Shown here: piece by piece, positions 31,852-37,699 of the stretch
Position numbering within the stretch: the first letter of the stretch is position 1
Layout of the letters: the number at the start of each line of letters is the position of its first letter
Assembly (NCBI GenBank): GCA_021371795.1
Contig: JAJFVK010000002.1
Span: forward strand, 62,001 to 126,000
Source of the DNA: Planctomycetaceae bacterium
GTDB lineage: Bacteria > Planctomycetota > Phycisphaerae > Sedimentisphaerales > UBA12454
DNA: 64,000 bases
Direction of reading: 5' to 3'
Made by a program: the position numbers and the translations under genes
Notes under the pieces: model-generated
What the model saw: only the letters and a program-made list of their open reading frames with translations
What the model was told of the DNA's origin: nothing
The model's database searches: none

Positions 31852-34800
31852 TTAACTGCATCCCATCGAGTTGCCGCAGTTGAAGCATTTATAACAGGAG
31901 CCGTTGCGGACGGTTATCGAGCCGCAAATATCGCACGCCGGTGCATCGTCCTGAAAATGCTCGAACTGTGCGTTGAACTGCTGCATTGTTGAGCCTTCGG
32001 TTTGTGTGCCGTCGCCTTTAACGACGGAACTTACTGTTGCGACCGCTCTGTCGGCCATGTCGGCAATTCTGTTCTTTTCAGTTTTTTCTTTTATTTCAAC
32101 CACCTTAACCGCCGGCTTTGCCTGAACAGCCTTTACTTCCGCGATTTTTTTGGCAAGGTCTTTTGTTTTTTCTACCAGAACTTTTGCTGTTGTCGTTGTT
32201 TTGTTTGTAACCTGAACATTATCCCGATTCGGCGTGTTTTTTTCCGCGTAGCCCGGTATGAACTGACAGCCCATCCAGCAGAAGATATAATCAATCAGGC
32301 TCTTTGCGAACGGTATGTTCTTATTTGATGTCATACCTGCCGGCTCGAACCTTGCGTGCCTGAATTTATCGACAAGCGTAACAAGCGGAACGCCGTACTG
32401 CAGCGACATCGAAACGCACGTGCCGACGACATCCATCAAACCGCCGACGGTACTGCCTTCCTTGGCCATCGTGATAAACAGTTCACCCGGCTGCCCATCG
32501 TCATAAAGACCGACAGTCAAATAGCCTTCGTGTCCTGCGACCGAGAATTTATGCGTAATGCTCTTTCTGGTTTCCGCAAGTCTGCGTCTGTATGGTTTCG
32601 GCGGAGCGGTAATGACTTTCGTTTCTTCTTTGGCCTCGCCGTCTTTATGTTCATCGGTTTGCACCGGCTGAAGCATCTTTGAGCCGTCGCGATAAACAGC
32701 CACTGCTTTCAGCCCCATTTTCCAGCCTTCCATATATGCCGAGCTGACTTCCTCTGCGGTTGATTCTTTAGGCATATTGATAGTCTTGCTTATCGCGCCG
32801 CTGATAAACGGCTGAACAGCGGCCATCATTTTCAGATGTGCCATATAATGGATGCTGCGAACGCCTTTTTGTGCCTTGAAAGCACAATCAAAGACCGGCA
32901 AATGTTCCTTATCAAGTTTTTTGCTCGTCTCGATGGTATCGTCTTTATCGATATCGTCGCATATTTGCTTGATATCGTCGGCGCTGTAGCCGAGTCTTTC
33001 CAGTGCCATCGGGACGGTTTTATTTACGATTTTTAAAATTCCACCGCCTGCGAGAAGTTTATATTTCACCAGTGCTATGTCCGGCTCGACTCCCGTCGTA
33101 TCGCAATCCATCATAAATCCGATAGTGCCTGTCGGAGCAAGAACCGTAACTTGTGCGTTTCTGTAACCGAATTTTGTGCCCGCATCAAGTGCCTGGTCCC
33201 AGGCGTCTCTCGCTGCGCTTAGCAGATAATCCGGGCAATTAACTTCAGATATATTTTTGCACTGCTGACGATGCATATCGATAACGTTCAGCATATATTG
33301 TGCGTTTTCGTGATATTTGTCGAATGTTCCCTTAACGCCGGCAATTTCCGCGCTGGCGATGTATGCGGTACCGGTCAAGATTGCCGTAATAGCAGATGCG
33401 ATTGTCCTTGCCTGTTCGCTGTCATAAGGAAGGGCAAGACTCATAATCAAACTGCCTAAATTGGCATAACCAAGTCCCAATGCCCTGAAATTATGACTGT
33501 TTTCAGTGATTGGAGCGTTTGGGTAACTGCCGTTATCAACAAGAATTTCCTGTGCGATAACGTATAATCTTGCAGCGGTCTTGAACCTTTCGACGTCGAA
33601 CGAGCCGTCTTCGTTTCTGAACTTAATCAGGTTAAGCGAAGCCAGGTTGCAGGCCGAATCGTCGATGAACATATATTCACTGCACGGATTCGATGCGTGA
33701 ATTGGACCTGCTGCCGGGCAGGTATGCCATTTGTTGATTGTGGTATGATATTGCAGACCGGGGTCGCCGCAAAGCCTTGTCGCTTCAGAAAGTAAGTCGA
33801 ATAATTCGCTTGCCTTATATTTTACCGATGGTTTGCCGGTCGTAACTTCGGTGGTCGTCCATTCTTCGTCTTTTTCAACAGCTTCCATAAATTCGTCAGT
33901 TACTCGTACCGACAAATTGGAATTCTGGAACATAACGCTGTTGTATGCTTCGTTATTGAATTGGCCGCCATAACCAGCATTGATAAGAGCGCGAGCTTTT
34001 TTCTCTTCCTCCATCTTGGCACTGATGAATTCTTTAATGTCAGGATGCGATACCATTAACGACTGCATCTTGGCGGCACGTCTTGTTTTTCCGCCGGACT
34101 TTACAACAGCTGCGATTTGGTCATAAACACGCATAAAGCTAAGCGGGCCTGATGGCTTTCCGCCGCCGGCGAGTTTTTCCTTACTGCTGCGGAGAGTTGA
34201 AAGGTCTGTGCCGGTGCCCGAGCCGTGCTTGAAGAGCATTGCTTCGCTGGCCGCCAGACTCATAATATCTTCCATTGTGTCTTTTACAGACTGGATGAAA
34301 CAGGCCGATGCCTGCGGATATTCATAACTGCTCTTGCATGGAACAGCTTTATTTAACTTGTTATCCCAATGATAGTTATGTTCGCTGCCCTCGATACCGT
34401 AAATATCTTTAAGCCCGACATTGAACCATACCGGCGAGTTGAACGAGCCGTATTGATTAACGCACAGCCATGTAAGTTCGTTGTAGAAGTTTTCGGTATC
34501 GGTTTGGGTTGCGAAGTAGCCGTCTTTTTGGCCGCGGTCAGCGATTGTTCGGCAGACTCTGTGAACGAGCTGTTTTACTGAATTTTCACGATGTCCGGTC
34601 TCGATATCGCCGTAGAAGTACTTGCTGACAACGACTTTTGTCGCAAGTTGGCTCCAGGTAGCGGGAACTTCGACGTTATTTTGTTCAAAAATGACCTCGC
34701 CGCCGTCGCCGGTGATTTTTGCCTGTCTGGTTTCCCATTCAAGCTGGTCAAAAGGATGGATTCCAGGTGTAGAGAACTGCTGATTTACTTTCAGTCCTCT

Positions 34801-34884
34801 TAATCTCGCATTAGGTGTATTCTTCCAATTATTCATACCGCTTTTATCATTTCCGTTCAAAAAACCATTCGAATTGCCGGCCAT
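31852..34884 (-). CDS. nrdJ: Adenosylcobalamin-dependent (class II) ribonucleoside-diphosphate reductase
   Basis: 1010 residues. Catalytic core landmarks: FNSPVWFN (about 134-141), [35 protein letters not shown] (about 397-416) and the [15 protein letters not shown] loop. The late part has a TSCPD-type domain (about 800-870) with [19 protein letters not shown], a lysine/valine-rich linker, and a C-terminal zinc ribbon CDICG...CYKCFNCG near the C-terminus. It makes deoxyribonucleotides in the cytoplasm using vitamin B12 and needs no oxygen. Two NrdR boxes lie upstream; GGGAGG precedes the ATG. Confidence 0.96.
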   Translation of the reverse strand: [1010 protein letters not shown]

Positions 34885-34990: not shown

Positions 34991-35348
34991 TTAGTCACGT
35001 CCCTCCTATACTACGCCTATGAATATTTTTTTCAATCTAAAAAACGGAAAAAAATATTAACGTTTTGTTAGTCCTTGTGGATTATGAACCTGCGCCAAAA
35101 AAAATTTCTAAAGAATTTTTAAAGAGTATAAATTTCCTAAAACAGTTATTCGTTAGATTACGATTTTTTCATACGTAAATTATTATCGGACGTTGGGTTA
35201 GTGCGATAGAGTAGCGGTGATGAAGTTTTTAAGGGATAATTGATTTAAAAAAGATATAATGATATAGTTTGTTAGTTGATTATTACGGAGAATGAAAAAG
35301 TTATCTGTGTCATGATTTATGAAAACTTATGAAAAAGTAAGATTTTTC
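34991..35348. other. A/T-rich gap between nrdJ and the AbiF locus
   Basis: About 360 bases without a convincing gene. It has A-runs, TATAAT-like words (35253-35262) and a seven-residue ORF from an ATG after GGAGA at about 35287. The direct repeat ATTTATGAAAAC/ACTTATGAAAAA is seen near 35310-35340. The nrdJ promoter must lie at the left end but I cannot place it exactly. Confidence 0.4.
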
Positions 35349-35378
35349 TTGAACTTTCCTATGTATATATGCGATACT
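35349..35378 (+). promoter_or_regulatory. Promoter of the AbiF-associated RNA
   Basis: -35 TTGAAC (35349-35354), 18-base spacer, -10 GATACT (35373-35378). The word CTATGTATA occurs twice as a direct repeat across it (about 35359-35367 and 35377-35385) and may be an operator. Start expected near 35386. Confidence 0.5.
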
Positions 35379-35385
35379 ATGTATA

Positions 35386-35442
35386 GGAAGCCCGCCAAGC
35401 CTCTGTCTTCGGACAAGCTAAATCTGGTGGGCGTTTCTTTTT
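35386..35442 (+). ncRNA. AbiF-associated structured RNA with built-in terminator
   Basis: Eight-pair outer stem GCCCGCCA (35390-35397) with TGGTGGGC (35425-35432), a 3' bulge AAATC (35420-35424), an inner helix AGC/GCT (35398/35417), an internal loop and TGTC-TTCG-GACA (35404-35415) with a UUCG-type tetraloop. TTTCTTTTT follows at 35434-35442, so the same fold ends transcription. It lies 10 bases before an Abi_2 gene, the position of the known abiF RNA motif. Inference: this RNA is an antitoxin or guide-like partner of the HEPN protein. Confidence 0.7.
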
Positions 35443-35452
35443 AGGGGGATAG

Positions 35453-36364
35453 ATGAGGTACACAAAACCACCTCTTTCATTCGAGCAACAGGCGGAACTT
35501 CTTATATCCCGCGGTCTTGAAGCTGATAAAAATGACCTTGTGTCAAAACTCCGTGTTGTAAATTATTATCGTCTTAGCGGATATTGGTACCCATTTCGTG
35601 AGCAGGGGAGTGAAAATTTCAAACCGCACACAACACTTGAAAAAATCTGGCGAAGGTATGCTTTTGATCGACAGCTTCGATTGCTGACTATGGATGCTGT
35701 CGAACGTGTGGAAATTGCAGTCAAGACAAGCATAATCTACTATCACAGTCATAACTGGGGAGCATTCGGGTACACTGCCAATATGTATTTACCAAATCTC
35801 GATGAAAAACGATATGCGGTTTTTATGGAGAAGATTAATGAGACAACTTCGCACAGCAAAGAGGGATTTGTCGAGCATTTCAAAACAATTTACGGCGATA
35901 CACATTCCCTTTTGCCATTGTGGATGGCTGCGGAGATTATGACATTTGGAATGATGCTGACAATGTTCAGAGGTATTGAAATGAAATTACAGCAGGCGAT
36001 TGCTCGTGATTTTAATATTTCTGACAAAGTTTTTCTTTCGTGGCTTGTGGCGATAAACACAATACGAAATGTTTGCGCTCATCACGGAAGATTAAGAGAC
36101 AGGGTATTGGATTATACGCCGATGATACCGCGAACAAATAAATATCCGGAATGGCACAATCCTGTTAACATTCCACAAGACCGAATATTCGGTATCCTGA
36201 CTATATTAAAATATATGATGAATATCATTGCTCCCCAAAGCGGTTGGAGTGAGCGATTCAAAAGTTTGCTGGATCAATATCAGGAAATACCAATAACATC
36301 TATGGGGATGCCGACAAACTGGCTGGATTGTCCTATATGGGCATTAAATGCGTCATTGCATTGA
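35453..36364 (+). CDS. abiF: AbiF/AbiD-type Abi_2 family HEPN protein
   Basis: 303 residues. The N-terminal Abi_2 signature is YYRLSGYWYPF (about 38-48). The HEPN ribonuclease motif R-x4-H appears as RNVCAH (Arg205-His210) followed by HGRLRDR. Abi_2 proteins (AbiD, AbiF) stop phage growth by abortive infection; recent work links AbiF HEPN proteins to Cas13 origin and to RNA antitoxins encoded just upstream. GGGGG lies five bases before the ATG and the RNA gene is directly upstream, so translation depends on read-through of its terminator or on another start. No integrase or transposase is nearby. Confidence 0.92.
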   Translation: MRYTKPPLSFEQQAELLISRGLEADKNDLVSKLRVVNYYRLSGYWYPFREQGSENFKPHTTLEKIWRRYAFDRQLRLLTMDAVERVEIAVKTSIIYYHSHNWGAFGYTANMYLPNLDEKRYAVFMEKINETTSHSKEGFVEHFKTIYGDTHSLLPLWMAAEIMTFGMMLTMFRGIEMKLQQAIARDFNISDKVFLSWLVAINTIRNVCAHHGRLRDRVLDYTPMIPRTNKYPEWHNPVNIPQDRIFGILTILKYMMNIIAPQSGWSERFKSLLDQYQEIPITSMGMPTNWLDCPIWALNASLH

Positions 36365-36376
36365 AGTAATATTTTG

Positions 36377-37699
36377 ATGGCGGATAAATTCACAAAAATT
36401 CGAGAAATGATTAAGACGTTTCCAACTGGGCCGGGCTTGTATTTTATGAAAGATGCGAACGGTACGGTTCTTTACGTCGGCAAAGCGGCCAATCTCCGCT
36501 CCCGCGCCGGCAGTTATTTTCAGCCGGCAGCGGACATTGAGTCCACCCGCGGGCCGAAAATCGCCGAAATGCTCAAAAAAGTCGCCGAAGTGGATTTTCT
36601 CGAAACACAAAGCGAAGTCGATGCTCTTCTGCAGGAAGCTCGGCTCGTCAAGGACATCCGCCCGCCATACAATTCCGATTTGACCGACGATAAATCATTT
36701 CCGTATCTTGAAATTACAATCCGCGATGACTACCCCGGCGTTTACATCACGCGCCAGCCGCGCGAAAAGAGTAAATTGTTCGGCCCATTCGCCGGCGTGG
36801 GCGACTTACGAGCCGCAATGGTTGTGCTGCAAAAGATTTTCAAATTCCGAACCTGCGGCCTTGAGATTGACGAATCAGACGACAAGCGAAAATTTTTCAG
36901 ACCCTGCATATTATATAGTATCAAACAATGCATCGCTCCGTGCGCCGATTATATCAGCAAAAAAGATTACCGAAAAAACATCGCCGATTTGATTAATTTT
37001 TTAAATTCAAAACGAACGACAGTCCTGCGCGAACTGAATCAGCAGATGGAAGCTGCCGCAAAGACTATGGATTATGAAGCCGCTGCGATGTATCGCGACA
37101 GGATTCGATTGATAGAAAATCTCGACAAGCGAGGCTCACTCGATGAAAATGTTCAGCCGGAGGTTTTCTTTACCGACCCGACCGAATCACTTGAGAAATT
37201 GCAAAAACTGCTCGGCAGTGCAAATCATATCCGCATAATCGAGGGTTTCGATATCGCGCACATCGGTGGCTCTGAAACTGTCGGCTCACTTGTACGTTTT
37301 ATTGATGGCAAACCTTTTAAAGCTGGCTACCGAAGATACAAAATCAAAACCGTCAAAGGTGTTGATGATTATGCGTGTCTGAAGGAAGTTTTATTGCGAA
37401 GATTTTTCCACGCCGCCGCAGGCGAAGAGCTTTGGCCTGATTTGGTTTTGATAGATGGCGGAATTGGTCAGCTTCACGCAGCCGAAGATGCGTTTAAGGA
37501 ATTGAAAGTTATACCGCCGGTTTTGGCTTCGCTTGCGAAAAAGGAAGAGATAATTTTCGTGTCAGGAAAAAACGAACCGTTGAAGCTGCCCGCCAATAAT
37601 CCGGCAAAAAAACTTTTGCAGTATGTCCGCGACGAATCGCACCGTTTCGCGCAGCATTACCACCATATCCTCCGCCGCAAAAAAATGCTTAACGAATAA
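36377..37699 (+). CDS. uvrC: UvrC-like excinuclease subunit lacking the tandem HhH tail
   Basis: 440 residues against about 600 in typical UvrC. Present: GIY-YIG nuclease (about 14-95; GPGLYFMKDANGTVLYVGKA), a four-Cys region (TCGLEI, RPCILYS, KQCIAPC; Fe-S site in UvrC), a UVR domain (about 215-250) and the RNase H-like nuclease with FDIAHIGG and LVLIDGGIGQLH, ending DESHRFAQHYHHILRRKK. Absent: the C-terminal (HhH)2 domain; the interdomain region is also short. It should make both incisions in nucleotide excision repair with UvrAB, but 5' incision usually needs HhH. ATG 36377 is preferred to a TTG one codon earlier. It begins 13 bases after abiF. Confidence 0.88.
   Translation: MADKFTKIREMIKTFPTGPGLYFMKDANGTVLYVGKAANLRSRAGSYFQPAADIESTRGPKIAEMLKKVAEVDFLETQSEVDALLQEARLVKDIRPPYNSDLTDDKSFPYLEITIRDDYPGVYITRQPREKSKLFGPFAGVGDLRAAMVVLQKIFKFRTCGLEIDESDDKRKFFRPCILYSIKQCIAPCADYISKKDYRKNIADLINFLNSKRTTVLRELNQQMEAAAKTMDYEAAAMYRDRIRLIENLDKRGSLDENVQPEVFFTDPTESLEKLQKLLGSANHIRIIEGFDIAHIGGSETVGSLVRFIDGKPFKAGYRRYKIKTVKGVDDYACLKEVLLRRFFHAAAGEELWPDLVLIDGGIGQLHAAEDAFKELKVIPPVLASLAKKEEIIFVSGKNEPLKLPANNPAKKLLQYVRDESHRFAQHYHHILRRKKMLNE

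Follow-up and report, generated by a model that had tools for sequence, protein, structure and literature searches.

The window (the whole 64,000-nucleotide stretch of DNA that we analyzed) was found to carry an RNA-protein pair that we read, with a probability of roughly 0.85, as a chromosomal, laterally acquired toxin-antitoxin module of the AbiF/AbiFr type (type III-like). The gene, the structure of the RNA, its conservation, its linkage to abiF and the mobility of the cassette were observed directly. The AbiF/AbiFr family is already known from other bacteria and the window module is ordinary for its kind; what is new is a planctomycete branch that falls below the Rfam threshold, an empty site together with movement of the cassette, a shorter bulge and a relative with tandem RNAs. 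Covariation, a naturally empty site and the joint movement of RNA and gene place the AbiF-RNA module firmly in the Planctomycetota, and the general picture of the AbiF/AbiFr system is unchanged.

Layout of the locus and the AbiF protein

The promoter element, the folded RNA and the Abi_2/AbiF gene named in a preliminary description of this DNA were borne out by sequence, fold and ORF, down to the eight-pair outer stem, the AAAUC bulge, the UUCG loop, the T-tail, the 10-base gap and the RNVCAH motif. The parts of the locus and its neighbors are as follows.

35316..36364, + strand: RNA-abiF cassette, the stretch common to loci L005 and L007, with unrelated flanks; left edge approximate, 35316-35318 (blastn)
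35349..35378, + strand: promoter TTGAAC, 18-base spacer, TGC-GATACT (extended -10), from the sequence; block conserved in L005/L007
35385..35443, + strand: abiF-type small RNA with a T-tail of its own, candidate antitoxin resembling AbiFr (RF03085, model R2, covariation, fold)
35390..35432, + strand: hairpin with outer stem 35390-35397/35425-35432, AGC/GCU stem, AAAUC bulge and UUCG-capped inner hairpin (fold and covariation)
35433..35442, + strand: T-rich tail GTTTCTTTTT, a probable intrinsic terminator separating the RNA from the toxin gene (sequence; a tail is usual in the family)
35443..35452, + strand: ribosome-binding site AGGGGGATAG before abiF (sequence)
35453..36364, + strand: abiF gene, Abi_2, HEPN RNase toxin by homology, 303 aa, RNVCAH at residues 205-210 (PF07751, PADLOC AbiD, PDB 8vz6_A)
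31852-34884, - strand: class II ribonucleotide reductase gene (nrdJ), divergent, left neighbor of the abiF unit
36374-37699, + strand: uvrC, short, right neighbor of the abiF unit

The promoter (TTGAAC-18-GATACT, with a TG ahead of the -10) had 8 of the 12 consensus bases, which is under the threshold of a simple promoter scan; it was conserved in L005 and L007 and looser in L006, L036, L037 and L038. We placed the start of the small RNA at 35385, where a conserved A marks the likely start of transcription, giving a length of ~59 bases, and the end of the T-tail is separated by 10 bases from the abiF ATG. The 9-base repeat CTATGTATA, present at 35359 and 35377, had been suggested as a possible additional control across the promoter. 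We rejected it as a control element since one copy was kept in L005 and none in L007, and it is most likely a chance overlap with the promoter.

The AbiF protein matched PF07751 (Abi_2) with an E-value of 1.3e-50 and 172.7 bits, over the curated Pfam cut-off of 25.6, and PADLOC AbiD with an E-value of 1.9e-69; no Pfam family other than Abi_2/HEPN was found on it. It aligned end to end (residues 3-296, E-value 1.6e-48) with PDB 8vz6_A, the PbAbiF protein of an AbiF-ncRNA complex. The RNVCAH motif (HEPN RxxxxH) was aligned to R210/H215 of 8vz6_A, making R205/H210 the counterparts of two residues whose double mutant is inactive in PbAbiF (PMC12373285). Both the ORF and the catalytic motif are intact. 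On its sequence, the window AbiF is assigned to the HEPN-family RNases and is probably a dimer. The search of the 2.85-Mb genome identified no second AbiF at E-values up to 1, and a search of viral contigs for close relatives, with the protein as query, gave no match.

The small RNA and its conservation

Folding of 35388-35443 gave eight outer pairs (GCCCGCCA/UGGUGGGC), an AGC/GCU stem of three pairs, the AAAUC bulge and, innermost, a UGUC/GACA hairpin capped by a UUCG loop; the dG was -21.2 and the z-score relative to shuffles -3.6. This hairpin was not listed by the terminator scan, presumably because the loop limit of 3-8 excludes an interrupted hairpin. The covariance search with the Rfam abiF model (RF03085) that had been suggested earlier gave a divided answer: the match at 35391-35432 was full length (model 1-37) and the best in the whole 2.85-Mb genome (E-value 0.12), but its 23.2 bits did not reach the gathering score of 37, a point against our reading. 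The match lies 20 bases before the sole AbiF gene of the genome, a position that carries evidential weight of its own, apart from the score. None of the planctomycete loci tested reached the gathering score, and matches at L009 (33.8) and Clostridium L028 (36.1), both preceding AbiF, were also sub-threshold. The Rfam cut-off for RF03085 hides the planctomycete clade, and public RNA annotation misses the module in this phylum.

We built a covariance model, R2, from nine homologues (alignment A3) with the window's clade left out; a further model, R1, was also made. In the 3' stem, three rows of A3 sit one position out of register, an error expected to cost the held-out test strength and not to lend it any. 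R2 found the window RNA at 38.6 bits (E-value 2.6e-7), with the next best match in the 64 kb scoring 13.5, and it also found the RNA at four AbiF loci outside its training set (L005, L007, L065 and L066). The highest scores among ordinary terminators in the genome were 31.8 bits (R1) and 28.2 bits (R2), which also weighs against our reading; part of the R1/R2 score comes from terminator-like make-up, and covariation and linkage are the stronger arguments. Two candidates for second RNA copies in the genome, L046 and L045 (the latter adjoining a gene with a trigger-factor-like product), were rejected as ordinary T-tailed hairpins in which both the inner hairpin and the GCCUCU segment are missing.

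A MAFFT alignment of 15 related hairpins (A4), a small set of related rows, had standard pairs in 97.5% of the pair cells and two-sided changes at 7 of the 14 pairs. No more than 1 of 500 shuffles was as high, and slid partners paired in 30-45%, a control that is somewhat favorable because the structure was derived from the A4 sequences themselves. Covarying stems in homologous upstream regions, on which the preliminary description had let its RNA stand or fall, were thus found. The RNA was identical at 47/48 bases to each of L005 and L007, while the coding DNA was 75-80% identical; this higher conservation of the RNA points to selection on it. Taken with the held-out model and the covariation, the 47/48 identity puts the window RNA beyond chance.

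The hairpin might be a mere attenuator or terminator in the abiF leader that binds no protein, which the T-tail directly 3' of a stable hairpin and the R1 scores of ordinary terminators would fit. A terminator, however, has no need of the GCC(U)CU loop or of the A-rich bulge, both of which are conserved across phyla, and the RNA is linked specifically to AbiF and matches an RNA family shown to bind AbiF. We consider such a plain leader element improbable. Less probable again is an inert or decaying module, a remnant without toxic activity; the intact ORF and catalytic motif, together with stronger conservation of the RNA than of the coding DNA, argue against decay, which the chromosomal site between housekeeping genes would otherwise suit.

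Linkage and mobility in the Planctomycetota

AbiF was present in 10 of 392 genomes of the phylum, and further loci came from other scans. When near-identical records were counted once, 15 planctomycete loci had an intact upstream region, and R1/R2 identified the RNA upstream of AbiF, on the same strand, in 13 of them. Five RNA-bearing loci (the window, L005, L007, L065 and L066) lay outside the R2 training. L042 had a longer RNA variant (22.8-23.9 bits), and at L043 a hairpin unmatched by R1/R2 stood upstream of AbiF. L065, in the same-family genome G398, had a single AbiF preceded by two tandem abiF RNAs (2160-2285), both carrying a T-rich tail; a window-like pair (L075) is present in G398 as well. 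In a tree of 36 AbiF proteins, the rows labeled RNA-bearing fell on one side of a branch with support 98/98. These labels were set before all rows had been checked and are incomplete, since L010 and some Actinomycetota labeled 'without RNA' have similar hairpins, and the split is therefore not to be read as a single gain.

Comparison by blastn aligned the window with L005 over 35316-36340 (77.8%) and with L007 over 35318-36349 (81.8%), and in both cases the flanks were unlike. The L007 cassette lies between dctP-like and dctQ-dctM-like TRAP transporter genes and that of L005 downstream of ABC-transporter-like genes, all named from sequence only. Ten genomes from the window's own genus or family (L049-L058) have nrdJ directly next to uvrC, with no intervening abiF. 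Native intergenic sequence could be traced in the window to ~35194 and uvrC resumes at 36374-36377, indicating an insert of roughly 1.05 kb; exact junctions and a mobilizing enzyme were not found. The presence of the cassette at three unrelated sites, along with ten relatives whose nrdJ-uvrC site is empty, indicates that the RNA and the gene move as one unit. On our reading, the chromosomal module was laterally acquired.

On the right side of the insert, uvrC starts 9-12 bases past the abiF stop codon, and the abiF insertion may have exposed this repair gene to transcription reading through from the abiF unit. The UvrC protein is short (441 aa), likewise in relatives.

Known systems and a proposed mechanism

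The nearest structural comparison is the PbAbiF-AbiFr pair of a Prevotellaceae bacterium (PDB 8vz6; Zilberzwige-Tal et al., via PMC12737573 and PMC12373285), in which PbAbiF binds one AbiFr per monomer and the bulge bases inhibit the RNase (PMC12737573). The two proteins are homologous end to end and share the RxxxxH residues, and each gene has one hairpin RNA with a single-stranded bulge. PbAbiF comes, however, from another phylum, and counterparts of the bulge contacts of 8vz6 (C32, U38) in the window RNA are putative. The window RNA matches the conserved CCCGCCAAGCCUCU and AAAUC of RF03085, but the bulge of its clade is one base shorter (AAAUC for CAAAUC) and is closed by an extra A-U pair. 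This shorter bulge tells against our reading in that the same binding contacts are not certain.

In C. difficile, AbiFCd is toxic, and the RNA RCd22 binds it directly and so neutralizes it both in cis and in trans; cis repression is by termination, and stem-breaking mutants of RCd22 fail while compensatory mutants work (PMC12373285). The RCd22-AbiFCd locus (phi027) has the same order of promoter, abiF-motif RNA, terminator and abiF gene as the window, and it is co-transcribed by read-through (PMC12373285), which for the window is a proposal. RCd22, located in a prophage, combines two abiF motifs with a separate terminator, whereas the window has one motif with its own T-tail on the chromosome. 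It is the L065 relative that resembles RCd22 in its two tandem motifs. Fusion of RNA and terminator was rejected as a planctomycete speciality, since hairpins of Pseudomonadota and Bacillota likewise run into T-rich tails. There, RF03085 matches start just past a promoter-like stretch, and the tail behind them is T-rich (6-9 T in 10 for most), with a separate terminator hairpin as well at some Bacillota loci.

Like the type III systems ToxIN, CptNI and TenpNI, the window carries, in this order, a candidate RNA antitoxin, a probable terminator and a protein RNase toxin, but the toxin family is unrelated and the tandem repeat array is absent. With a single RNA motif and an Abi_2/HEPN toxin, it is not a classical ToxIN-like system, and the single RNA copy speaks against our reading to the extent that repeats are a key feature of that class. 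The earlier proposal of an AbiF HEPN protein with an RNA antitoxin draws strong support by homology (8vz6, RF03085) and from conserved pairing and linkage. Such a pair has been shown to act through an RNA antitoxin in C. difficile (PMC12373285) and for PbAbiF (reviewed in PMC12737573).

By analogy with these homologues, the window copy of AbiF would be toxic, and its RNA would bind it, neutralize it and terminate transcription. We propose that a single promoter transcribes the short hairpin RNA, and that most transcription would stop at the hairpin's own T-tail, giving an excess of RNA, while occasional read-through would yield abiF mRNA. Unchecked, AbiF would arrest growth; the hairpin RNA would bind it via stem and bulge and block the RNase. 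A drop in transcription, for example on phage infection, would exhaust the RNA first and let the toxin act; this trigger and a role in phage defense are speculative. That the RNA's terminator limits toxin expression, as the preliminary description had it, is plausible, a T-rich tail being usual across the family. The same description had the RNA either neutralize or guide the toxin, and it is neutralization that the homologues favor. A guide or sensor directing AbiF to targets in a Cas13-like manner is hardly credible despite the proposal of AbiF as an ancestor of Cas13 (AbiF literature), since the conserved 59-base RNA is all hairpin and tail with no variable spacer or target-like part, each of the two closest relatives has the same base at 47/48 positions, and known AbiF RNAs inhibit.

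Returning to the RNA as antitoxin, a single element would serve as both terminator and toxin-binding hairpin, so AbiF, by binding it, could alter termination and set its own expression. We regard it as rather unlikely that AbiF on nascent RNA alters termination (autoregulated attenuation) and that the shorter bulge gives a cognate specificity separating two pairs per cell. If true, autoregulated attenuation would be a regulatory layer without description in the AbiF literature cited here, and cognate specificity could apply to the L075 and L065 pairs in G398. Minimal single-motif pairs and a two-pair genome are material for studying RNA-antitoxin recognition by a HEPN protein of this proposed Cas13-ancestral family.

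Outside the planctomycete clade, ten actinobacterial Abi_2 loci (L097, L098, L099, L100, L101, L107, L019, L026, L027 and L029) had a different upstream hairpin followed by a T-rich tail, with a long outer stem, an inner stem and no A-rich bulge. Two-sided changes occurred at 4/7 consensus outer pairs (ten sequences), and seven loci scanned at a permissive threshold gave no relevant Rfam match; this hairpin is possibly a second AbiF-linked RNA class. Other actinobacterial Abi_2 loci (L102, L103, L104, L105, L111, L115 and L116) had abiF-RNA-like hairpins, that of L103 (ACCCGCCAAGCCTCTGCATTGCATGCTCAATTATGGTGGGT) being near the planctomycete form. RF03085-like matches at L078, L084, L087, L090 and L091, near which AbiF was not found with the window protein as query, are possibly solitary RNAs or accompany more distant AbiF genes. 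In a Pseudomonadota Abi_2 clade of proteins mostly 320-340 aa long (L012-L015, L017, L020-L022, L024, L030, L031 and L034), no abiF RNA was found by model before the gene. One of these, L013, lies downstream of an ORF whose end resembles a type I restriction specificity subunit.
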